From assembly GCF_003589595.1 (NCBI RefSeq), contig NW_020653713.1, positions 4,433,444-4,497,443 on the forward strand: a stretch of DNA of 64,000 bases. Reading direction: 5' to 3'. Both the position numbers and the translations under genes were made by a program. Source of the stretch: Hyposmocoma kahamanoa. Taxonomy: Eukaryota > Arthropoda > Insecta > Lepidoptera > Cosmopterigidae. Positions 6,401-59,741 of the stretch are shown piece after piece (the first letter of the stretch is position 1; every line of letters starts with the position of its first letter). The notes below the pieces were generated by a model. The model saw only the letters and a program-made list of their open reading frames with translations, did no database searches and was not told the DNA's origin.

Positions 6401-9400
6401 TATTTACTATAGCCGTGGTAGCCGTGGTAGCGTGGTAGCGTGGTAGCGTGGTAGCGTGGCTTCACCTACCACCTCTCAAGCGGGTCGTGGGTTCGAATCC
6501 GGGCTAGCACCTCTGAATTTATCAGAATTCATATGCGCAATTTAATTTGAAATTTACCATGACTTTTTCGATGAAGGAAGACATCACGAGGAAACTTACA
6601 CACAATTTTTTTTAATAATAACGCACACACGCAACATAGTCTGTGGTAGTGGAACTACATATCGATTTGTATTTATTAATTTGCATTTTATTTCCATTCA
6701 TGCATTTTTACTGGACACAGACTGAAGATTTAAGCCATAGTCAGCCACGCAGGCCGAATGCTAGTACTTCACACGTTTTCCAAGAGCTGTGAACCTTCTT
6801 CGACATGCTGGTTTTATCACGATACTTCTCTTCACCGAGGAACTTAGGAATTAAAATCGCAAACACATGCCGCCACAGGTTTCGAACCGTTGACCTCTCA
6901 ATTGAGAAGCAACCGTTCCCCACTGTACAATAATCGTAAGTATAATATTAACAGTTTTAGAAGCTATTTAAAACATTTATATAGTTTTAGAGTTTGGTAT
7001 ATGTATTTGCGTGTGATGCACTTTGGTGGCATGGGCTGCGATCGCTCAGCATTATAGTACTGGCAGAAAACCAGCACTGTTTGACTTCTCTCGGTCTGAG
7101 TCAGGGCCATTTCAGCATAAACTGTAGTCATAGATAGGTACATCAAATTTTCTTAGTTCTCATAGTATTTGTCTGTTTGTTTCTCTGACCGTATTTGTTT
7201 TTATCACAGTATGTGTTTTATATCAATGTGTATTAAATTAATAATGTATGTTCTATGTGCTTTTATGTTATACTTTGTGAAGTGGTTATAAATGTTTTGT
7301 TTCTTTTGTATTTGTGCCGAATAGAAGTGTTATCTATCTAAATTAAAAATTAACATAAAAATGTAAAATTGCTGCCCGAAAAATGCACTTACTTGTCAAA
7401 AACATCCCTAACCGCCTTCTCGCTCTGTCCGATATACTTGGACAACAACTCTGGTCCTTTAACAGCAATGAGGCTCATGTTATGAAGCCGCGCGAGGCAA
7501 GACCCAATGTGAGATTTACCCGTGCCCGGAGGACCATATAAGAGAATACCGCAAGATTGAGACGGGAAGAGTGCTGGATACTGAAATCCAAAGTTTATGA
7601 TGATTACTGTTACGTTTTCATACCACTCATTAATTATTTCGTTCGTTCGTTCATTCATCCATTCAAGTTTTATTAACCGACTTAAAAAAGGAGGAGGTTC
7701 TCAGTTCCGTATTGTTACATAAGACTATTTTTTTCGCAATTACTGAACATTTGGCATTTGTGAACCAATTTTGATAATTTTGTTTTACGGTAACCGATTT
7801 CAATAAAACTTGTAATTCCACGAACTTTTGAGGTCAGTTTTTTTTTTATAAAAAAGTTATTCCGGCTTGCTATGCATAGTTGATAGGCAAACCATTTTTC
7901 TTACCATGATGGGCCAAAAAATACACTCAGTGAGTTCCTGCTTCACTTCTTCAAGGCCACCAACGGGGCCCCAGATGTCGAACGTGTTCGCTTTCTCCTC
8001 GTCCTTAGTTATATCTTCCACTAGCCGTGGCTTTGGTTCATTTGGGTGAGATTCTGCAAAAGAAATACACAATGGGATCATGTTGTGCCAAGTGTATTAT
8101 GAAGTTGTGTTCTAATGTAATAATAATAATATGTCAGACAAAGGAATACCGATTACCGATACCTGACTTCAAACTATAATACGCTGTACTATGAATACCA
8201 GAGCAACGCAATATATTGTGGAGCACTAAAGTGAAAGTCAAATTATCTTCATTTCATAGATAAGCAAATTACACTTGAAATTGTCATACTGATTAAACTC
8301 TGCTGCTCATTCGCAAGGCAGATTACCCTGAGAAGAACGAGCAAGAAACTCTAGGGGTTGCTCTTTGCAAATATACATTTATCATTACAATCATTGACTT
8401 ACAATTATATGGACGTCGGGTCCGCGCTAAAAAGTGTCCGAACTTATAGGGCGTTAAAATCGTATACAAAGCGTCATTCACGCTTTAGTCTTCGTTTGTT
8501 CGACTGACAGCGAAGCAAGCAAAATTAGACAGTACTGCGATGACATTACAATTTAAATTCAACGTTTTAGCTTTTTCCTATTCCTTTACATGTCACTACG
8601 TTTAAATAGGTTGACTTGGGACATTTTTTTTGTGGTTTTTGTATTAGACCCGTCGTCCATTTATTTGTAAGTCAATGATTACAATATTTAATTTAAATAT
8701 CTTCACTACCACGGATTTTTGTCATCCAAGTACGCAAAAGTTGCATAATAACCTTTAGTATAAAGTTTTTGTTTCACTATAGTTTTAAGCCTCGTAAATA
8801 GCAAAGTTTGAATATTAATCCAGATCTTATTATGGAAGCGTATACATTGCTTCTTAAATGAATTAAAGACTTAGTGAAATGATTTTCAAGAACAAGTAGT
8901 TTATTTTTATTCCTCATACTAATATTATGTATGTTTTTAATTTTCATAAAATAATTAATATTTTTCTTAACATAAACAACATTTTCATAAATGTGCTGTG
9001 ACATTAGTGTAAGAATGTTAATCTCTTTATACATATCTCTCAAAGACGCTCTGCGGCCCAGATTCTTTGCTCTACCAGAGCATCCAAGTCAGCAACAATT
9101 TAGAATTCCTAATTGAAATGTCATTTTACAGCCCGTCATGTAACAAATTAAACTTTTTATTCGGCTACAAGCAACGTAATCTGATTCGCAGATAAGCTGT
9201 AGAGCAATTATATGCCATTTGTCTTATATGGCGAAGATATTTGCGCCATGTTTGCTTGGTTTTAGGATTAAAATAATATGCAAATTTACTCACTCTTTTT
9301 TTTAATTGCTTTAAATATCTTTCTGTTCAAGTAATCCGTGATGTCACGAACGGTGTACCCGGCGGTGTCCATCGCGAGTCTGATGACGTCATCGTCCAGG

Positions 9401-12400: not shown

Positions 12401-15400
12401 CGACAACAAGCACATTCGTGAGGTCCGCTGGTTCGTTCCGTGGCTTAGTTGGCATATCGTCTGTCACGGTTTGGTTTGCTAGAAGACGTCGTCGGCTCGA
12501 ATCCGGCCAGATCGAAGGAATTTTTTTCTAAGTGTTCGATCTTTGTATTAATAATTATAACAAACTAGTGGAGTCATTTCACAAAAAATAATTGAACATC
12601 AATTCAATACAAATTTAATTACAAGTGCTTTAGTTACTTTAGGATCGGAGCAACATATGTAGTGTTGTCTTGTTGTGATTATGATTCTATTTCTAAAATA
12701 GTATTTAAGTACTAAGGTTATACGAGCTGAATTTCGACTGCAAAATAATAGCATTTAGAATTTAGATCTGTCGCAACTGATAGTACAACTCGCTGTTATG
12801 CTGGCTAGACGCCAGACGTACTGCCAAGTAGGCAGGTGTGATGAAATCGAATCGATGATTCGTCTAAACCATGTACTCTATTTTTTGCAGTTCCCTGATG
12901 CAATCAAAATCAAGCTCGTGTAACAGCGCCTTGAATCAGGATTTTAGTGGCCGTTAAATCATGAACTATGCTATAAAACACAATCCCAATTGTACAATAG
13001 TTTTAATGAATTGTATTACCTCTGATAATAAGCAATATCCTGTGGCGAAGCGCCTTCCATATTTGGAGGGACTAACGAATCCAAATCATCACAAATCAGC
13101 ACAGCCGGGCTATGTTCTTGGCACATCAATATGGCCTTGCCCAATACCTCGGGAATATCTTTTCGGCCCTTTAATGATCGACAGTGGAGGATGTGGGACC
13201 AGACTATCAGTTCTTTTTGAACTATATGACAGAATGCCGATTTTCCCGTTCCACTGAGACCTAAAACAGGTTAGACAAGGTTGACTTTAAAACATTTAGG
13301 CGTACTAGACCTCAGATCGGTACCATTGTTTTGCATCAACATTTTAAGCGAAACTTGTGTTACTAACATGTTTGAAATCAGCAAAACGAGATCTACAAAC
13401 CCCTATAAGCGGTTTTCTTATATTTTATTTAGTTCCAGTTTTATTGAAAGCAAAATCAGCGACATGTTTCAAAGAAAAAAGCTTTACCAATACCTCAAAA
13501 GTTAAAAAAATGCAAACGCATTGTAAATGATAAGGAGGGCAGTATAGCGAGTTTGAACAAGAGATTAATTCCTGACCAAATGAATAAGATGTACATCGCA
13601 TCCAAAGCGTCGCCTCGGTGAAAGGCTACTGAATTAAGTAGGTATGAAATTAAGACTCTTTTCCTTTCCAAAATATGACCGTGCTTCGTTTTTTCAATCT
13701 ATAATTTATTACAAATTCCTTTACCAACATCTATTCCTTTGTTATTATCGCATAATAATTATTCCGTTCATAGGGAAAAATTATATTAAAGTTTAGATTA
13801 TTATGATATTATCATTCTTTTCAGCTATTACTATCTCATTTCAATTTCCTTTCATGATTTCCATCCTTCTTTGTTTAAATTTACCTATAGATACTACCTA
13901 CCCTATCCTGTTAATCGCCTTTCCAAAATTCCGTTTGCTTTTATTTTTATTCAGCGATTTCCTTTCCCCGTTTTTAATTTCATATTAATATCTAAAACCC
14001 ACGACAAAGTTCTACAACAACAACTACAACGACAATGATATTCTGAAGTCTCAAGAAGGAAGAAAATTTTATGCTTGGAAGAATTTTAAAAAATTGGCAA
14101 CACAATGGAAATTTCATATGGCCAAAGGCTGGACGCCATAGTGCCAAGAAATAAGAAAAAAAAGACTACCATTACGTAAGAATTAACAATATTATACTGG
14201 CGTTTACAAAAAAATTTACTATGGTTAATTATGTACATACACTACAAGTAGAACTTTGTAACTTTGTAAATTAAAACAGGTAAAACTACACTTTATTATT
14301 AAAAAAAAACTGCCTCAGTGGCCGAACGGTTACCATACCGGACTGCCACGCAGAGGTCTCGGGTTCGGTTCCCGGGCCGGTAGAAATAGTTGTATGGCCT
14401 ATATTTATTTCTCTCGTGAGTTTAGGTGTAATTTGTGGTTGTCTATGTGTGTCTATGGCACCCGTGATACAGGGTTTCCTAGTGTGGGGCTATGTTGAGT
14501 GTGTGCGTTGTTATGTACACTTACCAGTAACCAACACATTGCTCTTTATTTCAGAAGCACCCTTGAAATTAGCTTCTCTATGAATTTCAAAATATACATG
14601 CAACAAAACATTTTCAACTAACGACTCCATAGATTTCATTGTTCTACAATAATTTTTGTAATCATACTCCAAATTGGACATTGTAGGTTTAGGCAGTTCT
14701 AAATCTGCATCTGTTAGGCATTTCGCTGATATTGTACAATGTCTAAAAGATTCTGAATTGAGCATTGTATATTTTAACTTTTCCGGTTTCAATTTAAATT
14801 GCAAAAACCCTTGACTTATGTGTGCATTCTGTTTAATCATGGCGTCGTTTATTAGGAACTTTTTACCAGAATGTGTGCTATCTATCACACAGTTTTTAAA
14901 CTTGTCTATCACATCAATCTCAGTTTGTGTTTGCTCAGAATATGTGATTATATCTATATGGTCTGGTTGCTCAATTTTGTCTCCAATAATTGTCAGTATA
15001 ACTCTTGAACCGTTTTCAATATTAATAATAGCATTTAGTGATTTCGGTATAAGAATGGTTGGTATGTTTTTATTATAAACCTCTCTGCACAGACTTCTAA
15101 ATACCACACAATTCACAGGAACTATTTCAACACATAAATCATTAATTTGACTATTATTATTCTCACAATCATCGTCTTTTTCATTAATTATAGATGGAAT
15201 GGTCTTCATAGTACCCAGAATGACAGTGAAATCTTTATATTTTTCTAACAAATCTTCATGTAAAAATACTATGTATGGATGTATCAAGTTTCTTTTACCA
15301 TCACTATCAATAGGTAGAACTCGCAAAACTTTTCTTTCAGGTATATGCAGATAGGGACGTAGCAAACCGTCAATTATTATGCCGATATTTTTAAATTCAA

Positions 15401-18400
15401 TATTTTTTTGTTCAGGTATTATTGATGATTTACGATTAGAGCCATGTATGCTATTAAAAGCGTCTACTTTAACAACAATACGGCTTTGATTGACTAATAA
15501 ACCAGTCTGTTTTGGAGTAAATATGATTGGCATCGAAGAAGATATCCATACGACTGCCTTCTGATTGGCTGCTACAAGACGTAATTGATCTAATACACGG
15601 AGCTGGAGAACTTCGGCATTGTGTTCCTGTAAATTCATAATAAACATTTGACTTTACTTTTGTCATTACAGTGACTTTGCTCGGGACATCACGGGTCGTA
15701 CCACGCCAGTGCGTCTGGAAAAGAGTACATGTATGGACTGTAACTCTCGGTAGCTTCAAAGGGCAGAACTCGAGACATCGGACTCCGCGCCACCATTGTC
15801 TGTACTGCGAGTATGCCCAAACGGGCGCGGTGCAGGGCGACCCGTGACATTACAGGCCGTAGGAAACCACTTGAGAGAACAAGGAACCAACAATTCTCGG
15901 CGAGTATGATCACTGATGGTCAGAGATCTAAATGGGCATAAAATGTTATGAACCTAAACTTTAATGAAGTACTTAATATACAATACAATAAATAATGGTC
16001 GACTTAAAGCTTATAGAAATAATGTAATGCTTAAACTAACTGAACTTCCGTACGTTAACGATCCCAATAAATTGTATAATTCAGTTTTCAACATAGTCAA
16101 AAGTGAACGTGATAACGTTTTTAGGTCCAAAATCATAACTATTAATAATTCATTGAAATTTAGTGATTGGGCGACTGTAGGAATTCACAAAAGTAGACAA
16201 AGACTATATGATCTTTACGATGAAAGGACTTATAACACTAGTAACAGTTTTAATGATTTTGTTAGGAAATATTCGAAAATGTTTAAACGTGTTTGTGTTG
16301 CAGCCAAAGCAATGTTTATAAATAATAAAATAAAAAGAAGCGCGAATGTAGTAAAAGCGACTTGGAATATTATAAACAGCGAAACTGGAAAGGTCAAACC
16401 TCGTAACTTAGATTTTCAACTAAGATTTAATGACAAAATTGTAAACACAGACGCAGAAGTTGCTAAAATATTTGAAAATTTTTTTACTGACATTCCAATT
16501 TTGACTACTAAGTCGTTAAATTCATCTCCCACCGCCGCTGAATCCTTACTAAAAGAAAATAATGCAGTTAGTATCACTAATTTAAGGTTCCGTCATGTAT
16601 TTCCAAACGATATTGTTAAAGCCTTTAAGTCTATAAACATAAAAAATACTGCTGATCTTGATGGTCTTTCAGTCAGAGTAATTAGTTCTATAGTTGATTG
16701 TATTGCGCCTTATTTAGCCTGTGTCTTTAATAAATGTGTTGATGATGGTGTCTTTCCTGACCTCATGAAGCAAAGTAAAGTTATTCCACTTTTTAAATCT
16801 GGTAGTATTTCTGACCCCACCAATTTCAGACCTATATCAATACTACCAACTCTCAGTAAAATATTTGAAAAAATTATTCTAAATCAGATGTGTGCACATT
16901 TTTATAGTAATAACTTAATGTCTCATAAACAATTTGGTTTCACTCGGGGTCGCTCTACAACCGACGCTGGTGTCGAGTTGATTAATCATATATTTGATGC
17001 ATGGGAAGTCTCACATGATGCTATTGGTGTATTCTGTGACCTTTCCAAAGCTTTTGATTGTGTGCACCATGACACACTGGTCAGGAAACTTCGCCATTAT
17101 GGTGTGGCGGGACGTGATCTCGACCTTCTTAAATCGTATTTGCGTGGTAGAGTACAGAGGGTCGATGTTAACGGTACGAGATCGTCAGGATCTGCAATTA
17201 GCATGGGTGTCCCTCAAGGTTCAATTCTAGGCCCATTTTTGTTTTTAGTTTATATTAATGGCTTACCTAGCCTTATGGAGGGTGTAAAACATGAGATAGT
17301 ATTGTTTGCTGATGATACTTCCTTATTATTTAAAGTTAAAAGGCACCAATGTTCCTACGACGATGTGAACAATGCTATATCTAAAGTTGATTGGTTTGCT
17401 GTTAATAACCTACTTCTTAATGAGAAAAAAACAAATTGTGTGAAATTTACATTACCCAATGTTAGAGAGACGGTTACAAACATTGTAGTTAGAAACGAAA
17501 AATTGAATCTTATGGATACAGTTGTATTTCTAGGTATAACGTTAGATGCTAAATTGCAATGGGATCCCCATATAAGTAAGTTATCAAAACGGCTCGGCTC
17601 TGCAGTGTACGCGATTAAAAAAATAAGGAAACTTTCAGACGTCGAAACCGCTAGATTGGTTTACTTCAGCTACTTTCACAGTCTAATGACATACGGCATT
17701 TTGCTTTGGGGTAATGCCGCCGATATCAACAGAATCTTTGTCCTGCAGAAACGTGCAGTTAGGGCAATTTACAATCTGGGCCCCAGAGTATCTTTGAGAT
17801 AAGTTTAAGGAAATTAACATTCTTACACTAGCCTCACAGTACATTTATGAGAATGTAATTTATGTTAAAAGGAATAGTAATTTATTTATGAAAAATAGTG
17901 ACAGACATAACATTAATACGAGGAATAGAAATAAACTAGCTTTTCTTGATAGTCGTCTTCACAAAGTCAAAAAATCATTTAAGGGGCAATGTATACGCTT
18001 CTATAACAAGATTCCGGTTGATATACAAAATTTGCCTTACACGAGGTTTAAAACTATAGTGAAACAAAAACTTTATACTAAAGGTTATTATACAACTTCT
18101 GCGTACTTGGATGACAAAAATCCGTGGTAGTAACCCGTTTAGCTCATGGAGGTAGTCTCGATCTCTGATGTTTCAATTAATAAAGAAATATTGTAAATGT
18201 TATTTACAAAGAGCAACCCCTAGAGTTTCTTGCTCGTTCTTCTCAGGGGAATCTGCCTTACGAATGAGCGGTAGAGTTTAATATTGTGACGATTTCAAGT
18301 GTAATAATGCTTACCTATGAAATAAAGATTATTTTGAATTTGAATTTGAATACATGGAACAGTATAAATGGCGGAATTATTGTATTGAATTTTGTTCCAC

Positions 18401-35460: not shown

Positions 35461-36545
35461 CGAGGGTCACACTGAAAGTTCTTAGAATGACAAAAACAAA
35501 GCAAACCAGCTAGTTAATATTTTTATTATTTTTCTTCAAAATAGTGTCCATTGACATCAACACTTCGCTGCATTCGATGGACCCACAGGGAAGCATTTTG
35601 CCTACTCTTCCTTTCTCTTCTATGGCCTCTTCAAATGCAGCCACTGCTTCCTCCGTGAATCGCTTTCCCCGGAGATTTTCCTTTATTTTCGGAGGTCCGG
35701 ACTGTATGGCGGATGACGTAGTATTTCTACACCTGACGTCGCCAAATAATCAGTTGTTCGTTGGGCGGTGTGTGCGGAAGCGTTGTCATGATGAAGCAGG
35801 ATCCTACTGCGAGGTCGTTTCTCCCGAACTTTTTCCAACACTAGTCGCAAGCAATTGTTGGCAACCATTTCCGTCCGAAAAATGAGGCTACCATCTTCTT
35901 TCCCACGCTTCGACCTCGCTTTACTTTTATAGACAATTCTTCTAAAGGAAACACTCACTGAGCAGACTGTCGTTTAGTTTCTGGATCGTAACAGTAATTC
36001 CAGCTTTCGTCACCCGTGACTATATCGAATACAGCATTTCAGTGGCCTACGTCTAATTATTGTAACATATCACGACGGAATTTTTATACTTCGGTCAAAT
36101 AAAAATCTAGCCGCTAAATGTTCATGAAGGATTTTGTGCACTTAACTCATACCAATGCCCAAACTACAGAATTCAGCCACCGCAGTTGAAGGCAGTCTCT
36201 CACGCAGGGCATCAGAAACAGTAGTGCGACCACGTTTAAACTCATTGAACCAGTTATAAACAGTGGCACGGGATGGAGCATCATCATGAAAGGCCAACCG
36301 AAGTCTGTCATAACTTTCTTGTTGACTTAAATCACAACAAAAGTCGTAGAAAATCATTGCACTAAAATTTTCTCGAGTTAAATTCATCTTGACGTGAAAC
36401 AAACAATTTTCAACTTGTTCGCCAATTTGTAAGAATAAATGAAATATACTCGATAAGGATATCGAAGAATACTATTTTTAAAATTCAAATAATTTATTTT
36501 ACTGTTTCTAAGTAGCCAGTTCTAAAAAACTCAGTGTCGCCCTCG
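35461..36545 (-). mobile_element. Mariner-family transposon (1085 bp) with TIRs and TA target
   Basis: The left end CGAGGGTCACACTGAAAG and the right end, reverse complemented, CGAGGGCGACACTGAGTT are imperfect inverted repeats, each flanked by TA (35459-35460 and 36546-36547). The length is near that of a full mariner. The broken transposase is on the minus strand. Confidence 0.88.
35510..36387 (-). pseudogene. Mariner transposase, inactivated
   Basis: The N-terminal helix-turn-helix part MNLTRENFSAMIFYDF and SRATVYNWFNEFKRGRTTVSD is readable at 36387-36142. The middle is frameshifted. ILLHHDNASAHTA holds the second catalytic Asp and PPYSPDL follows, but the frame then goes directly to RK and a stop followed by KENLRGKRF-like sequence. 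The nine or so residues that carry the third Asp of the DD34D triad in mariners are missing. The last codons end at a TAG at 35512-35510. Confidence 0.85.
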
Positions 36546-36889: not shown

Positions 36890-37150
36890 TGTTTATTGTT
36901 GTCTCTATGGTTATTTGCACAAGAGTACCTCAACAATAGAATTGTTCAGCATTTCATAATCATACTGCCATAATCGAGATGCCTCTCAAATATTATTAAT
37001 ATGATTAATACGTAAATACTGCATTTAACAAAGGTTATTTCAATATTAAAGGAAGCACCTTTAAAAATTATATATACAACCTACACGTTGTAAGCATAAT
37101 TAAAAAAAAATTTCAACTAAAATAATGTGACAACCATACGCTCCGAGGCG
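36890..37150 (+). repeat. Repeat carrying an empty Transib-type site
   Basis: TAAATACTGCATTTAACAAA, TTATTTCAATATTAAAG and ATAATGTGACAACCATACGC match 56622-56831. Here CGCTC occurs once, followed directly by CGAGGCGTG. Confidence 0.7.
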
Positions 37151-37768: not shown

Positions 37769-38490
37769 TAATTCAAGACGACTGATAAGGGCGCATTTAT
37801 TTGACACGAATTTTATCGCGCTCACGAAGTCGCAGAGCGGAGTCCGTGTTTCCGACGCGCAGCGACCGCGTGCGTCTAACTGTCATGGTAAAATACGCTC
37901 TAATTATTTAGCTTTTACGTTTTAACTTAAATGAGCATCCCGGACACGCGGACGAGACTGGCTTGAATTTGGGCTACACAACGACCGCGCGGTTGTATGA
38001 TTCAGAGGAATTAAATGTCGTTGCCTAGTAAATAGAATTCAGTTTCGCCATTAATGCACATGAAGGCGTGGTAACTGGGCGGGTAGTCAGGTATATAGTA
38101 CCTATTTGTACACCATATGTCGCGACGAGTACCAAGCTAGTTTTGTAACTATTTGTTTTACATTGATGCAATTTATCAAAGCTATTGTAATTTCTAGTGA
38201 TAACAAACAAATCAACTAGATGACGCTTATAGCAATTTTTATGGATAGGTACTGCCGGCTATTCCTGCTTAGGATAAGCGCCATCTACCCATATTAGTAA
38301 GCGTTAAGTTATAAATTAGTTTGTAACACACAATGCCATATTACATATAAGCATATTTAACAAAGTTCAGACAACAATTAGGTCACGCATGATGAATATA
38401 TTCTTCTGAATATTTGAATAAGATTACAAAGAAAAAACTGACTACTTGTATTTCATATTAAAGAGGAAGTAATTAATTTTCCGTTTATAT

Positions 38491-38718
38491 CATTGACTTA
38501 CAATTATATGGACGTCGGGTCCGCGCTAAAAAGTGTCCGCACTTGTAAGGCGCTAAAATCGTATAAAGAGCGCGACACTCCGCTTTAGTCTTCATTTGTT
38601 CTACGGACAGCGCGATACTGCGATGACATAATAATTTAAATTTCGAATAGGTTGACTTGGGACATTTTTTTCGTGGTTTTTGTATTAGACCCGTCGTCCA
38701 TTTATTTTTAAGTCAATG
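38491..38718. mobile_element. MITE family M1, copy 2 (228 bp, 8-bp TSD)
   Basis: Same ends as copy 1; flanked by GTTTATAT on both sides. Differs from copy 3 at only about three positions. Confidence 0.92.
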
Positions 38719-50505: not shown

Positions 50506-50983
50506 CTACAAGTAAACATGTAAAAGTGTATTTATATTAATAAAGAATAAAATCAAAAATTTAAACAGCTTTACTTTACTTGAACAGTTAAACACCTTTT
50601 TAGTCGAGCTCAATAATAATTAATCTGTTTAATTTAGTGTGCACTATCAATTTTGTGGAATTAGTTAGTTTAATATATAACTCAGTATACAATAGTTTTA
50701 AACATACAAATAATTCTTAATAGTGTTAAGTGCGGCGTATAATATCAATAACAACCTACAAGTTAATTTTTTTCAAGTTTGTGCGGTTAAGTATTCACGA
50801 ATACGCAAAAATCGCGGTTGCGCAGTGTACGGAGCCATCATATTGCCGTGAGTATCCGCTTTGTGACGTGAACAACTGCTGAGCCATACTGCGCAGACGA
50901 GTCATTAGTGCAGCGAGTACTGGAGTTGCATCTGAGAGGATCGCGAATAACAACAAAATATTAATTGATTTACTTATGCGAAA

Positions 50984-52051
50984 ATGTCTTCTACTAAGGG
51001 ATTGGAATGTAGTGGTTGCCTAAATATAATTTCGGGAGAATATTTAACTTGTAAAAATTGTCACCAATTGTACGACCTGTTATGTGCCAATATAAATCGG
51101 CCAGAATATAGGCAGATGAAAACGGATCCTAAGCGCTCATGGGTGTGTGATGGCTGTCGTAACAAAATGCCTAAATCTAATAAAAATGATACCCCTACCG
51201 AAAAAAACCGTTTTCAACGTCCAGAAACTGACGATGCGCATTTGAATGTAACGCTTAGAAACAAGTCTAATCCTCGGAAGACTGATATTGGTCCCGCTAA
51301 CATAACAAGTGGCGAAGTGCGCTCGGCATTACGGGAGGAACTGAAGCTTATTTTGCCAACACATCTGTCTACCGAATTGGCTCCTGTCAGGCAACAACTT
51401 CAGGATCTTCAGGAGTCAGTACAGTTCGTGAGCAATCAATATGAAGATCTAAGCAAATCTTAGGAGACACTCATAATTGAACATAAGGCTATTAAGGAGG
51501 AATGTATGAGTTTACGCATCAATACAGCTAGTCTGACTGAAAGGATAAATACAATGGAGCAGTATTCACGCGGCTCCAATTTAGAAATACAAGGTGTACC
51601 TGAAAGCAAATAGGAAAAGGTTGTTGATCTGATTAAAAAAATTGCTGAAGAGGTCTCATACACCATCCCCGATTCTGGTATTTTGAACTGTACGAGAGTA
51701 GCTAGCATTAACAAAGATGTTAAGCGTCCTCGAGCAATTATTGCCAAAATGTATAGAACACGCTATCGTGATGAATTTCTATCCGCTGTCGCTCGGTACA
51801 ACAAGTCTCATATTAACAAGAAACTATGCTCATCTCTACTTGGAATATCTGGCGAGAATAGACCGATATTTTTGTCCGAGCATCTCTCTCCTGTCAACAA
51901 GGCTCTTCATGCTGCAACAAGGAAAAAAGCAAAAGAACACGATTGCAAGTATGTTTGGGTGCGTAATGGCCGCTCCTTTATGCGTAAGGACGAAAATTCG
52001 CGTTTTATTCACGTTAAAAATGAAGACGCTTTGGACTCTTTTAGATGGTAA
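50984..52051 (+). pseudogene. LINE ORF1: PHD-like zinc finger, coiled coil and FP-like C-terminal domain
   Basis: One frame of 355 codons from MSSTKGLECSG to a TAA at 52049, broken by only two TAG codons (51461 and 51611) and no frameshift. Residues 9-56 have paired cysteines (CSGC, CKNC, CDGC) in a PHD-like layout. Residues about 110-180 are heptad-rich (REELKLILPTHL, PVRQQLQDLQESV). The C-terminal part KYVWVRNGRSFMRKDEN resembles the domain that LINE ORF1 proteins share with the baculovirus FP protein family. ORF1 proteins bind the element's RNA. The two nonsense codons make it a pseudogene, unless the element copied itself from an intact source. Confidence 0.8.
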
Positions 52052-52117
52052 TACTTTCAATTATTGTAAGTCCCGATTGTCATCAGATATATGTTTTTTG
52101 TATACTTATATTTTTAT

Positions 52118-54932
52118 GGATAGAGTACACTTGTCATTGTTTTATCAGAATATAAGAGATGTAAAATCTAAAGTAATGGACATATATAATAGTATTCTTT
52201 GTAATAATTACGTTGTGATTTGTCTGTGTGAGACCTCTAACGAAGACATATGGGTGTATGGGTATGGGTATATATTTAAAACATAGTTATATCAATATCT
52301 GTGTGGTGTATCTTCCGTCGTATATAACTAAAATAGAATTTAGTCTTTTTTTTTTAAATTAGTCATAACAATATTACAAATGCTGGAAATAACCATACTT
52401 TAATTTGCCAGAAATGATTGGAACAGTAAAGGTTTTATTTCGACAAATAATCAAAAAGTTGCTGCTTTGCACGATTTCGCTTCAGGGGCAAATATTTTAC
52501 TTTTTTTTTTGTTAAAAAATTATAACGACAAAATTTTGGATGTCGTATTGAGTACTTTAAGATTGTCTTGTAGTGTTACAGAAGCTCAACTTTAAGCCGT
52601 CTTGATAAACATCGTCCTCCACTCGATATTAACATTGCACTGAATAGTGAAGCCATACTCAAGTAAAGAGCAGTATAGAGATTGAATTATCGCAAAACTA
52701 ATTTTGTAGTTTGCATTTCTGAACTGAATGAAATAAACTGGAACCAATACTGTGATTACGCCTGTAACGAATTTGTCGAAACTGTCTACAACTATCTCAT
52801 TACAATAATAGAAAGAAACACTCCGAAATCTAAAGTTAATAAGTCCAACCGTCCTGGTTTACAAATGACTTGATTGGTATTCTCAAGGAAAAGGATAAAT
52901 ATCATCGAAAATTTTACAAATTTGGTATACCAAGAGACGAAGATACGTTCTCACTTTTGAGAAGGAGAGCAAAAGCAACTTTAGAAAATGTTTTTACTCT
53001 AGAAAAAATCTTAAAACAGGTATAAAAGCATTTTGGAGATACACTATATCTAAAGGAACTACAAATGACATCCCAAAGGTTATGTGTCTCGAGAATGAGT
53101 TCGCTAATTATGGAGTAGATATTGCAAATTTGTTCACGAAATACTTTTCTTCCGTATATAGTATGCCTGGATCTTCCAGAGTAAATGCCAGATTTCTTGG
53201 AATCAAGTCTAAGGGTTATATTCCAGGACTCTACTCAATGCTCAAGTCAGGATTTGAGCAGACTTGAGTATGATTTCAAGCACTGGAAATACGACCCTAA
53301 TGGCAAGGACTTGAGTATGATTTTCAGTGCTCACTGCAATAGTCCAGTCCTGACTTGAGTATTGAGTTGAGTTCTGGAATACGACCCATAGTCTGTCTAA
53401 AGTAGTCATCTTAGAAAAAGAGGTAGAATCGCATTGAAGACACTAAAAGTAAATAAACTTTCAGGCCTTGACAGCATACCGCCGTCATTTGTTCGTACTT
53501 GTGCTCAAGCTTTAATAATTCCCCTTACAATTATTTTTAATAGGAGTCTTTCTCAGGGATGTTTCCGGATCGTTGGAAGGTCGCTAAAGTTACTACTTTG
53601 TAATGGGTACTCCATTTGTAAGTCCGGCAATAAAATTGATGTCTAGAATTACAGGGGAGTTTGCATCCTTAATTACTTTAGCAAAGTCTTTGTAGGCTTA
53701 CTGTATTCATTATTTACTATCATATGAAACACTTGATTAGTCCTAAACAACATGGCTTCGTCGAAAATCGTTCAACATAAGTCTAACCTGTTCACGAACC
53801 TCTAACTTGCTCACGTACGTTCATTATGTGGGAATAGCGCTGAACAAGGGTCAACATGTGGATGCACTATACAAAGATATGAAAGATTTGCGAAAGCATT
53901 TGACAGGGTAGATCACAAAATAATCTGTCACAAGATGAATCGCCTTGGAATACACGGTAATCTGTTGCGTTGGCTAGAATCTTACTTAATGAACAGAACT
54001 CAGCTGGTGACTGTATACGGATATGATTCGATTCCTTTTCAGCCGCTGTCTGGTGTTCCACAGGGTTCTAATCTGGGCCCATTGCTATTCATACTGTTCA
54101 TTAATGATCTATTGGGATTGATCAGCAGTGAGTGTCTAGCATATGCCGATGATATAAGATTTTTAATAAAATCGTAGGGGCTACAGATTGTTTAGCGCTG
54201 CAAGGGGATATTAACGTGCTCTCAAATTGGTGTCGAAATAATAATATGTCCCTTAATGTTAACAAATGTCATCTATTAACATTTACACGTAAAAAAATCC
54301 TTTTATGTAAATTGTATGTAAATGTAGTTATGAAAGATCTGGGAGTGTGGATTTATTCCAGTCTCTCTTTTAGACAGCATTATGACTATTAGTGTCAAAG
54401 TGCAATAAAATTATGGGTTTTCTAATAAAGTCTGTGCGGCCATTCAGAGATCCATGCACCATTGTTATTTTATATAATGCATTGATTCGAAGTGTATTGG
54501 AGTATTGTTCAGTGATTTGGTCTCCGTATGATCGACATAAAAGTAGAATCGAATCTACACAGAAGCGTTTCTTGAGACATTTAGCCACTAAAATGGGTTT
54601 AAGACGTAGGCTCACATCATACGAAGATAGGTTAAGGTATTTTAAAATTTATACCTTAGAGAGTAGACGCTCTTCGCGCAGATTTGCCGTGTTATACAAA
54701 TTGGTCAACACTGTGTGGGATGCTAGTGAATTGTTAGATCGGGTTGGGATTATTGATTGGAAGATACCGCACGCAAAAAAAAGTTTTTTATGTGCCACTT
54801 ACAACATACAAGGTGTCGTACAATGATCCGTTGTTTTGTATGTGCAGGAATTATAAGAGGGTTAACACGGAGGTAGATATACTCCACCAATCTTTAAAAT
54901 CATTTCTAGCGTCTAGGAGGTCCCAAAACTAG
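52118..54932 (+). pseudogene. LINE ORF2 remnants (endonuclease and reverse transcriptase)
   Basis: Pieces in several frames: LSLFYQNIRDVKSKV (start of the APE-type endonuclease), LKVNKLSGLDSIPPSFV, LGIHGNLLRWLESYLMNRTQ, SGVPQGSNLGPLLFILFIND and the catalytic AYADDIRFL (near 54140), then YNALIRSVLEYCSVIWSPY and the C-terminal LVNTVWDASELL. Many frameshifts and stops separate them. A MITE interrupts the region at 53213-53387. Clearly dead. Confidence 0.8.
53213..53387. mobile_element. MITE inserted in LINE ORF2 remnant (175 bp)
   Basis: About 40-bp inverted ends: left includes TATTCCAGGACTCTACTCAA, right (reverse complement) TATTCCAGAACTCAACTCAA. The LINE coding pieces resume on each side. The flank TAA|GGG against CCC|ATA gives no exact duplication. 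Confidence 0.75.
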
Positions 54933-55696
54933 GTGCGTTCATTTTACTTATTTTTTTGTAGATTTTTAATTTATGACTTGCTCAAACTTTTTTCATTTTA
55001 TAAACGTACATTTTCATTTTTATAGAATATTTAACTAAATCTGTTTCATTTAAATGTTGTGCACAATTGTCATCTGTTCCAAGCTAAAAAGTGTTGTAGT
55101 ATTAAATTACTATTAAGTATTGTACATGACAACTGTTATTGTGTCTAAATAAATAAATAAAAATAAAGAAATACTTCCCAGGCAAAAAAAAAATAGCAGT
55201 AAGCCCCGGTAACAGCTTTTCGGTTATATGTCAATGTTCTTACGTATAATTACTTTAACACATAGAATTAAAAAAAAAATAACTCCGAAAGTTATTGAAC
55301 ATTGTCTTATTTGTTGTGCGCAACACAACGCGGCTGTAACCATATTCCCTTATTTCATCCATTTCAAAACTTCTTCCCGCCAAGTTGTACCACACGCATT
55401 ATTTGTAGGAAACAAGATGTATTAGAATTTTAGTTGCAGATGGTTGTAACATTATAATGTATACATAATGAAAACGACACGTTTATAGAATAATAACGGC
55501 AATTAAAACATGTTCAGTAGTAGTATATATATAATAACATAAGTGAAATATTAAATAATAAAACAGAGGCATTATTACGTCGTTTTAAAGTATGAAATTG
55601 CGTTCTAAATACTGGCCACATTGAAATGATATAAATAGTCTTTAGTGTAAGATTCAGATTAAAAACTTTTTTCAAAAAAGTCGTATTCTTCGTATT

Positions 55697-55924
55697 CATT
55701 GACTTACAATTATATGGACGTCGGGTCCGCGCTAAAAAGTGTCCGCACTTGTAAGGCGCTAAAATCGTATACAGAGCGCGACACTCCGCTTTAGTCTTCA
55801 TTTGTTCTACGGACAGCGCGATACTGCGATGACATAACAATTTAAATTTCGAATAGGTTGACTTGGGACATTTTTTTCGTGGTTTTTGTATTAGACCCGT
55901 CGTCCATTTATTTGTAAGTCAATG
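55697..55924. mobile_element. MITE family M1, copy 3 (228 bp, 8-bp TSD)
   Basis: Same ends as copies 1 and 2; flanked by TTCGTATT on both sides. Near identity with copy 2 implies recent movement. The 8-bp duplication and the CA start fit the hAT or P superfamily; the parent is unknown. Confidence 0.92.
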
Positions 55925-56621: not shown

Positions 56622-56831
56622 TAAACGCATTCCATTTCTATGTCATCATCATACTTCCATAATTGAGACACCAATACGCGATCCTGGTATAAAAATATCA
56701 ATATGTAAGTACTGCATTTAACAAAGCTTATTTCAATATAGCACGAGACTACTGTGAATGTAAATACATTTATTTATTTAGTTTTCAAATTACATGTACA
56801 ACTGAAATAATAATGTGACAACCCTACGCTC
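56622..56831 (+). repeat. Copy of the 36890 repeat, interrupted by Transib
   Basis: TAAGTACTGCATTTAACAAA and AATAATGTGACAACCCTACG are shared with 36890-37150. The repeat appears to continue after the transposon at 59737. Confidence 0.7.
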
Positions 56832-59736
56832 CACTGTGATTCCCCCATAGGCCATAAATCAAAAAAAATCATTGGCTTATCCCGGTTAGATCAACTCACT
56901 AAGTTAGTAACTAGTTAACAAGCTTCCAAAAACTATAAATATCAATGTAATTAGGTCACGTTATCATTCACTTTTGTGCATCGGAAGTGAGCGCATCGCG
57001 AGACTAATTATCACCACGTGTGAGTCATCGAAACTTAATCACTTTGTTTTTGAGTGTCACTATTCCAAATCAAGTGTTTACGTGTTGTGAAAGCATGGAG
57101 ATCCAAGAGCATGGTATGTACTTTTATTATCAATTTTTTTAATTTTTTTTATGCATATTTTTTTTTATATAATTTTTTTATTGAAGGCAGTTTTTTGGTG
57201 AAAATTTTTGGCATAACTTAATTTCCTTTAGACCTACAACTTTTGGCTGCGCTGAGCTGCACCTGAGGTATATGGTTTTTGAATAAGGAGTATGTCCTTA
57301 TTAAGAGCTATAAGTTTCATTTGCATCTTGCTGCCTCTTCTTGGCTTAAAGGGGTGTCAAAGTATGCATGTCCATAGTATTGAATTTTTAATTTTTTTTT
57401 AAGTTCAGCTTTCATATTGTTTTAGGTACATTTTTCAAATGTTCTGTATCGAGGATGACAATTTTTGATATTTGGCACTCTAAAGTGGGTAATCCAAATG
57501 AAAAAATGCAACACGTCCTGAGCACTTTGACCGAAACATCATCCCTTTCTGACGACATCGAAAATATTGATTTAGAGACTTTAAGCCTTAAAATTAAGAA
57601 TATTTGTAAACGAATTTCCCACTACTGGGCAAAGTCGAATCGTACTAGATCTAAATTCTTACAAAAATATTCAGATTGGCTGCATGTCGTTGAAAATATT
57701 GATGTACAGCGAACTGAGTTACGTGTATCTCAGAGCTTTGACGAAGTTAAACCATCAACTTCTTCATCGCATGGCCGTCCGAGAATTAACTTTGACGACA
57801 CCAGTAAACGTACAAAAAGGAGAAGCTTGGCTAGTTTGTCTAACCAAGACCCTTCTCTTGTACAGTCATTGCTCAATGCGTCCGATAGCTTGTCTTGTCC
57901 TGAAATCGATTCTAGCGAAGTTTTATCGCTCATTGTTGAAGCTCAGTTAACTCGACATCAATATATATTAGTAAAGAAATTTATAGACAATAAGTTTTCA
58001 AAAACCATTTTCCCATCTTACCAAAGTGTCGTGGAATCTAAAAAACACTGTTATCCTTCAGATATTACTGTTACAGAATCATCCGCCGAAGTCGAACTTC
58101 AAAGTTTATTAGATCATACTGCCAATCGGATTCTCAAGTCTCAAAAAGATGTTTTGGATAGTGTACCTAATGAGTCTCTAGATAAGATATCTTTGATAGG
58201 GAAATGGGGTTTCGATGGCAGTACAGGGCATTCAGAATATAAACAGTGTTTTTCTGACTCCACTCTTGAAGACAGTAGCCTGTTTCTTACTTCGTATGTG
58301 CCACTTCAGCTTGTTTTGACAACAGATAACAAAGAAAATTCAGTAGTTTTGTGGAAAAATCCTCGTCCTTCATCAACTCGATACTGTCGTCCTATACGCC
58401 TCCGATATTTGAAGGAATCGACTGCAGTGTCAGTTGAGGAAGAAGCTCATTTTAAAGATAAAATAAGGAACTTGCAGCCTACTGTTTTCAAGGAAGAAGA
58501 TCGCGAATATCGCATTACTCATTGTTTGCAACTTACTATGGTAGATGGTAAAGTGTGTAATGCACTTAGTGGTGTTTCTTCATCAAAATGTTTTATTTGT
58601 AACGCCTTGCCCAGTGAAATGAACAAAATTGACGAATGTTTAAATAAGGAAGTCGATGAGAGTAAATATGAATTTGGTTTATCACCTCTTCACGCGTTAA
58701 TACGTTTTTTTGAATATTTTGTTCATGTCGCGTACAAGTTAGATGTTAGGAAATGGCAAGCTAGGTCCGCTAATGACAAAATGCTTGTTGCTGCAAAAAA
58801 ATCATATGTTCAGACTCAATTTAGAGAAAGATTAGGGCTTATAGTGGATAAGCCTAAAAGTGGCGGAAGCGGAACATCAAACGATGGTAATACAGCCAGG
58901 CGGTTTTTCTCGAATTCAGAAATTTCCGCTGAAATTACTGGGATCAAGAAGGATCTCCTAGATCGTTGCTGGATCATCCTTCAATGTTTAAATTCGGGAT
59001 ATAATATTAATAAGACGAACTTCGAAGAGTTCGCTTTAGAGACGGCTCGGCAGTTAGTTGCCGAGTATCCGTGGTATAACATGCCTGCTTCCGTTCACAA
59101 AGTTCTAATTCATGGTGCTAATGTTATAGATTACGGTTTGTTGTCAATCGGAGAGTTGTCTGAAGAAGCAGCTGAAGCGACTAACAAATACATCAAGTCT
59201 TTTAGAAAAAATCATACGCGTAAAATGAGTCGCATTGTGACCAACACAGATTTAGTAAATAGGCTGCTTCTTCATTCAGATCCCTTCATAACAGGTCTAC
59301 GAAAGTTACCTGTTAAAAAAAAAGGTGTACTGTCAAAAGCTGTATTAGACTTGTTATGTATTTAAAGTTAATATTGTTGAGATTTAATGTATTTTGGTAT
59401 AATTTGGGTTTTGTTTGTATTTTGTAAAATGAACTTTTTTATGTATTTTTATTGTTTTAATTTATTCATTTGTGGTTATTGTTAATACAAATAATCATTA
59501 TTTACACAGTTTTACCATTAAAAGTCGCAGTATAAAATGTTTTAGATACATCGTCTAAAAACAAAATTACTGCGAGACATTTTTACACCTAAATATTGTC
59601 AAATATTTTTTAAAATGTATAATTTTATTAATTTACGTTTACCTAATCATATTTTAACGTATTAAAATAAAAAAAAAATAATAATTTCGGAGTTACGTAT
59701 TTATGACCGCCTTAGTATGGAGCGTGAATCACCGTG
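56832..59736 (+). mobile_element. Intact Transib DNA transposon (RAG1-related), complete with TIRs and TSD
   Basis: A 2905-bp element. The left end reads CACTGTGATTC and the right end, reverse complemented, CACGGTGATTC; ten of eleven terminal bases agree, after which similarity is gapped. CGCTC occurs directly on both sides (56827-56831 and 59737-59741), the 5-bp GC-rich duplication typical of Transib. Inside is a single transposase gene (57095-59365). The CACWGTG-type first seven bases are the family hallmark and match the RSS heptamer used in V(D)J recombination. No stop or frameshift was found in the coding region, so this copy may be young and possibly still mobile. No RAG2-like gene is present in the element. 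Confidence 0.95.
57095..59365 (+). CDS. Transib transposase (RAG1 core-like DDE recombinase), two exons
   Basis: Cuts and joins the transposon ends. Most of it is one open frame; counting from the internal Met at 57455 (636 residues): first catalytic Asp in KWGFDGSTGH (D254), second in LTMVDGKVCN (D364), Glu in EEAAEATNKYIKSFR (E574). These align with RAG1 D600, D708 and E962. The zinc site C379-F-I-C382 plus H548-x4-H553 keeps the CxxC and HxxxxH spacing of RAG1. A likely first exon, 57095-57113 (MEIQEH plus one base), ends at GTATGT and joins in phase to 57426 after TTTTAG, giving a 652-residue protein with TFFKCSVSR ahead of the internal Met. That exon is inference from splice signals; the large frame is direct. 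No RING or RAG1 N-terminal domain is visible. An AATAAA occurs near 59664. Confidence 0.93.
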
Positions 59737-59741
59737 CGCTC

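Follow-up and report, generated by a model that had tools for sequence, protein, structure and literature searches.

The DNA analysed here is a stretch of 64,000 nucleotides from the moth Hyposmocoma kahamanoa (C510:4433444-4497443 of a 728-Mb assembly), which as a whole is referred to as the window. It harbors a transposon of Transib, the superfamily thought to have given rise to RAG1, the V(D)J recombinase. The element occupies positions 56832-59736 (2,905 bp), exactly the coordinates given in an earlier note that had been made on this DNA.

The element and its ends

The element is flanked by a 5-bp target-site duplication (TSD) of GC-biased sequence, CGCTC, present on the plus strand at 56827-56831 and 59737-59741. 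The left terminal inverted repeat (TIR), CACTGTGATTC, lies at 56832-56842 on the plus strand, and the right one, CACGGTGATTC as read on the minus strand, at 59726-59736. Both start with CAC and are heptamer-like (CACTGTG and CACGGTG, respectively), as expected of Transib elements, and 10 of their 11 bases match. A clear TIR is limited to these 11 bp, and perfect CACNGTGATTC occurs in the window only at the two ends of the element. The matched CACNGTG ends and the exact CGCTC duplications described earlier were thus found again. Inside the element no second ATG-started open reading frame (ORF) of at least 150 aa is present, and the only other stop-to-stop frames of at least 70 aa lying wholly within it (121 and 70 aa) are both located inside the transposase gene.

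The transposase gene

The uninterrupted ORF of the transposase comprises 636 aa (57455-59365, plus strand), and the residues of the catalytic and zinc sites are numbered on it. Alignment places the catalytic residues at D254 (58214-58216), D364 (58544-58546) and E574 (59174-59176), opposite positions 109, 208 and 419 (counted by hand) of the HzTransib chain 6pqn_A. With a constant offset of 17 these are the published catalytic residues D126, D225 and E436 of HzTransib (PMC6941560). The zinc site is formed by C379 and C382 (58589-58600), both invariant in an alignment of 100 sequences, together with H548 and H553 (59096-59113), both at least 90% conserved therein. A DDE triad and a split C2H2 zinc site are therefore present in the order known from RAG1, in agreement with the uninterrupted transposase that the earlier note had read from the letters. 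Its relation to RAG1 was borne out as well, since the best solved relative in a protein search is HzTransib, followed by amphioxus RAG1L and RAG1; the homology to a known Transib transposase is thus given.

The coding region probably begins further upstream, at 57095. Here, a proposed exon 1 (57095-57113), starting with the first ATG after an initiator-like motif, would be joined in frame to exon 2 (57426-59365), which contains the bulk of the transposase, the 636-aa ORF and the stop codon, yielding a protein of 652 aa. The proposed GT-AG intron of 312 bases (57114-57425) has kept its GT and AG in all of the 40 copies that were compared, namely the best-scoring of 176 candidates in the assembly, window copy included, which are therefore a set chosen by similarity. 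Candidate promoter motifs on the plus strand are a TATA-like box, TATAAAT (56934-56940), and, 30 bases from it, TCATTC (56964-56969), which resembles the initiator consensus. When the N-termini of 60 relatives were compared, the upstream residues of P0007, P0026 and P0029 resembled the spliced sequence of the window, with C-x-F-x-R in these relatives versus C-x-V-x-R in the window.

Copies in the genome

The left 22-base end of the element occurs 133 times and the right one 136 times in the assembly, allowing up to two mismatches, while reversed controls gave no occurrence for either end. These counts include small contigs, possibly second haplotypes, and the genome contains roughly 130 near-identical copies of this family. 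Pairing of the ends took in 97 of the 133 left and 100 of the 136 right places and yielded 89 pairs, 77 of which are 2,890-2,920 bp apart (shortest, 1,191 bp). Full-length copies thus prevail among the 89 pairs, which show no swarm of shortened elements.

The best 40 copies are all 99-100% identical and 39 of them span positions 1-2905. On average they differ from the majority sequence at 4.25 positions (0.146%) and from each other by 0.28%, and of the 152 variable columns 139 vary in a single copy only. Genome copies all equally diverged and lacking polymorphism, named beforehand as the finding that would speak against a young element, were consequently not observed in the copies and insertion sites covered. 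The maximum of 10 substitutions belongs to L034 and is partly an artefact of its replaced right end, which was forced into the alignment. Both 11-base ends are present in 39/40 copies (L034 lacks the right one) and exact 5-bp duplications, mostly of different words, in 37/40, which argues against a chance assembly of these features. The 652-aa frame is intact in 39/40. Within the coding region 25 synonymous and 69 nonsynonymous changes were counted; the synonymous share of 26.6%, compared to 21.5% expected under uniform mutation, is near neutral and therefore fits changes that accumulated after insertion.

Since the best 40 had been selected by similarity, 20 further copies were sampled, namely the first listed places with a perfect left end outside this set; they stand for the remainder with perfect left ends rather than for all copies. 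Eighteen are full length and align across both ends, with 0-6 substitutions (mean 4.33), one matches over 293 bp only and one is cut off at the edge of its contig. The short one, L041 (C8:2414440-2418040), carries the left end and the first 293 bp only and is identical to the majority. Without L041 and without L047, where the element extends past the contig start, a set of 58 copies results. Its mean divergence from the majority is 0.147%, and the 652-aa frame is intact in 46/58. With the butterfly mutation rate of 2.9e-9 per site and generation, this corresponds to an age of about half a million generations, a value that is indicative only.

The window copy compared to its siblings

The window copy differs from the other 39 at six positions of its own (57133, 57662, 57826, 58286, 59407 and 59662). 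At 57133 it is one T short in a T-run of the intron, the full run being present in the other 39 copies, and three of the differences lead to amino-acid replacements, which on the 652-aa protein are E86Q, R140S and V294L. The difference at 59662 is a T in place of the A of the siblings; thus at 59661-59666 these would read AATAAA and the window ATTAAA, so that the window copy may have a weakened poly(A) signal.

A motif resembling the nonamer-binding domain, GRPR...RTKRRSL, is encoded at 57773-57829 on the plus strand (ORF residues 107-125). In a profile search GRPR...RTKRR-S-L aligns without gaps with GRPRQHLLSLTRRAQKHRL of RAG1, the match being weak (2.7 bits). That Transibs possess such a domain, with GRP conserved, is already described in PMC9435367. 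The codon 57824-57826 within this motif holds the change from R to S private to the window (residue 124 of the ORF, residue 140 of the 652-aa protein). Among 99 relatives position 140 is occupied by K (53), R (44) or I (2), in contrast to S in the window copy. Of the 46 intact copies compared in this genome, window copy included, the other 45 have R140. The aligned residue in human RAG1 is R410, according to a manual count cross-checked on R394, R396, S401, T403, R404 and L411. For R410Q of human RAG1 an activity of 0.0 +/- 0.0 is listed in PMC6754361, and both R410Q and R410W are recorded from patients in PMC8821501. By analogy, R140S may weaken the window copy's own enzyme.

The window copy is open-framed with good ends, yet not pristine. 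Of the description as complete and apparently intact, the frame and the ends stood, whereas the substitution at a site where 97 of the 99 relatives have K or R speaks against an unaltered copy.

Target sites and empty counterparts

Exact 5-bp duplications were found in 54 of the 58 full-length copies, within flanks of 36% G+C. Among these 54, the first base is C in 51 and the last base G in 45, both being realized in 42; the targets follow C(R)N(Y)G. Since the TSDs differ, the copies do not stem from one segmental duplication. An exact TSD is missing in L006, L034, L040 and L058; in L006 a single additional base at the junction disturbs the duplication CACGC.

The insertion point of the window copy is where an older dispersed repeat (56628-56831, plus strand) ends; uninserted relatives of this repeat are present at 36960-37144 and elsewhere in the assembly. 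This repeat ends ...ACAACC(C/A)TACGCTCC; other copies of it reach the insertion point and some extend slightly beyond. The match of the right flank to the paralogous empty site at 37137, taken by itself, lacks significance (1,286 of 5,000 shuffles were as good), while flank and repeat jointly score 96, the maximum of 500 shuffles being 34. In the sequence compared, 4 of the 40 copies have a paralogous empty site that spans the junction. The clearest are those of L037, located in the window itself (8389-8563, 97% identical), and of L008 (83%); those of L004 and L029 are at 68-69%. Matches to the L037 empty site occur at 38489-38612 and 55693-55848 as well.

To look for empty counterparts, the joined flanks of five insertions (on C103, C16, C510, C2450 and C560) were searched in the assembly, and for one of the five an empty counterpart was found. 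The insertion on C103 has an uninterrupted site on C1699, listed as 100% identical over query bases 12-800. The junction is exact in 301 bases, with one CAGTG versus two at the filled site and one mismatch. The simplest reading is that C103 and C1699 represent two alleles. For C2450 a relative of 84% identity spans the junction.

Unequal ends

Beyond the shared 11 bases, both ends carry CCAT, AGGC and CATAAAT at differing spacing, CATAAAT starting at base 22 of the left end and base 32 of the right end. An equally good likeness turned up in 384 of 5,000 shuffles and in 379 of 4,913 window pairs, and under a stricter scoring chosen after the fact in 445 of 20,000 element-internal pairs. The likeness of the ends behind the 11 bases is thus suggestive at most. 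Symmetric TIRs are given for most Transib families in PMC8289069, 12/23-like asymmetric ones for some Transibs in PMC8355894, and both kinds for Transib Subgroup II in PMC9435367, where Subgroups I and II are told apart by a CTT1 or CTT2 tail and the alpha11-alpha12 region. Since asymmetric Transib TIRs are in print, unequal ends would not be new in kind, even if they are real.

A further-reaching proposal would be that a living Transib family possesses both halves of RAG recognition, a nonamer-binding-like domain and unequal ends, with CATAAAT at distances of 14 and 24 bases from the heptamer, a difference of about one helical turn as in the 12/23 rule. The window copy with R140S would then be a natural loss-of-binding variant. 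We regard this proposal as doubtful. If true, the need for unlike ends would become testable in a transposon still moving.

Other features of the window

A reverse transcriptase ORF of 612 aa is located at 15964-17802 on the plus strand (Pfam RVT_1, E=3.6e-31). It is adjoined by an ORF on the opposite strand (14511-15647), whose match to PEX-1N lies just under the cut-off (25 versus 27 bits). Pieces of an apparent second element of the non-long-terminal-repeat type are located at 50969-54826 on the plus strand, where an ORF with a weak PHD-finger match is followed by frames that, judged by eye, are broken reverse-transcriptase-like ones. Also by eye, broken mariner-type transposase-like frames are seen at 35510-36471 on the minus strand. 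A repeat at 38485-38712 and 55514-55918 (minus strand), represented at 8389-8563 as well, carries one translated stretch in common at two places, and the three matches to the L037 empty site fall on it. Furthermore, exons in the window piece together cyclin-B3. Among the 120 matches listed, the top named ones are 79-81% identical and come from moths or butterflies, as do all named matches above 60%; the best named match outside these is from a termite (38%), in line with a lepidopteran host.

Interpretation

Taken as a whole, the observations are almost certainly best explained by a young and recently spread Transib family of cut-and-paste transposons with a DDE transposase. It is an addition to the known Transib superfamily with good evidence for recent amplification. 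The near-identical copies, the exact duplications, the kept frames and the one empty counterpart argue that this family is young and probably mobile. Earlier the window copy itself had been proposed to be young and perhaps mobile; this holds for the family, whereas for the window copy no near-identical empty site was found. With its good ends and open frame, it could probably be moved by the enzyme of its siblings.

Mechanistically, what is known of HzTransib and RAG suggests that both ends would be bound by a dimer of the transposase, and that DDE catalysis would nick the DNA at CAC and then leave hairpins on the flanking DNA. The element would be cut out and its 3' ends joined 5 bp apart into a new target, the copy number rising via repair or the timing of replication. 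Expression would start from the element's own TATA/initiator promoter and be followed by splicing, and the family may be active at present.

Several observations weigh against this interpretation. No identical pair exists among the best 40 copies, and outside of them the 652-aa frame is kept in just 7 of the 18 full-length copies sampled, where many of the failures are small length changes that may be either real or assembly errors. A near-identical empty counterpart was not found for the insertions on C16, C510 (the window copy), C2450 and C560. Also C103 and C1699 are small contigs (16.8 and 28.2 kb), which leaves room for a recent segmental duplication of the region that preceded the insertion. 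Finally, no protein containing exon 1 was found in the protein database with an 80-residue query, the three proteins at E <=0.01 each covering 80% of it, i.e., the part without exon 1. The promoter and the intron are therefore putative.

It is possible, if unlikely, that the burst was recent but is over, every copy now being fixed or silent and that of the window a dead passenger. The lack of an identical pair would fit some time elapsed since insertion, and the broken frames in 11 of the 18 copies outside the best 40 as well as the single empty counterpart in five tests point in the same direction. On the contrary, C1699 holds an empty counterpart, 63 of the 69 places scored in a protein search of the genome are free of stops, 18 being tied at one high score, and two copies (L005 among the 40 and one of the 18 further ones) carry no substitution from the majority. 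That the gene of the window is a domesticated, host-useful Transib gene would agree with the open frame and the conserved catalytic site, but is highly improbable in view of the intact TIRs and TSD, the copy number, the neutral pattern of changes and the deviation of the window copy at a conserved site. A transposase of another DDE superfamily (P element, hAT), resembling RAG1 in fold only, is contradicted by the alignment with HzTransib (6pqn_A) and by the structural alignments and has a negligible probability.

Comparison with known systems

The young Transib family described here has been compared with the Transibs named active in the literature covered, Hztransib of Helicoverpa zea (in vitro) and Transib1 (Drosophila melanogaster). 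HzTransib shares 42% identity with the window transposase over the core, and the catalytic residues align one to one. Hztransib had been cited earlier as an active Transib; it does belong to the same superfamily, but at this identity it is not a close relative, and a naturally active Transib1 has already been published. In a tree of 43 rows it is placed far from the window transposase, on a long branch that makes its placement unsure. According to PMC1852546, Hztransib is 3,518 bp long, encodes a deduced 489-aa protein and has long TIRs and the TSD GCTCG, in contrast to 2,905 bp, a proposed 652 aa and TIRs of 11 bp here; GCTCG and CGCTC are both 5-bp GC-rich duplications. Transib1 is described in PMC12974806 as active in nature, with an estimated invasion of D. 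melanogaster in 2013-2016 and copies with a 5-bp TSD. The likeness to Transib1, which lives in another host, lies in these described features (natural activity, recent invasion, 5-bp TSD).

Among viral and genome contig collections no Transib relatives were confirmed. A transposase 99% identical to that of the window, P0001, comes from Logan contigs. It has one extra residue and I146, and since both are missing from the best 40 copies, P0001 probably comes from another species or lineage. A very recent shared source or a horizontal transfer is possible. The one-residue difference from P0001 was also considered as decay of the window copy and was rejected, since the siblings share it.

The solved HzTransib chain begins at a point equivalent to about residues 144-148 of the 636-aa ORF and therefore lacks the nonamer-binding-like stretch. 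Because its N-terminal nonamer-binding-like region lies outside the solved chain, the present family is a candidate for studying the function of the nonamer-binding domain, and possibly of unequal ends, prior to the domestication of RAG. In addition, it provides a Transib from Lepidoptera of which numerous intact copies are almost identical and one insertion is found both filled and empty.

RAG1 and the RAG1L protein of ProtoRAG share with the window transposase the predicted fold, the DDE residues and the zinc site, at an identity of 12-19% in structural alignments. RAGL transposons of the ProtoRAG kind possess a RAG2-like gene, and because the window element has none, it is not a RAGL transposon. 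RAG and ProtoRAG, as far as the literature covered describes them, have in common with the window element the CAC heptamer and the 5-bp TSD.
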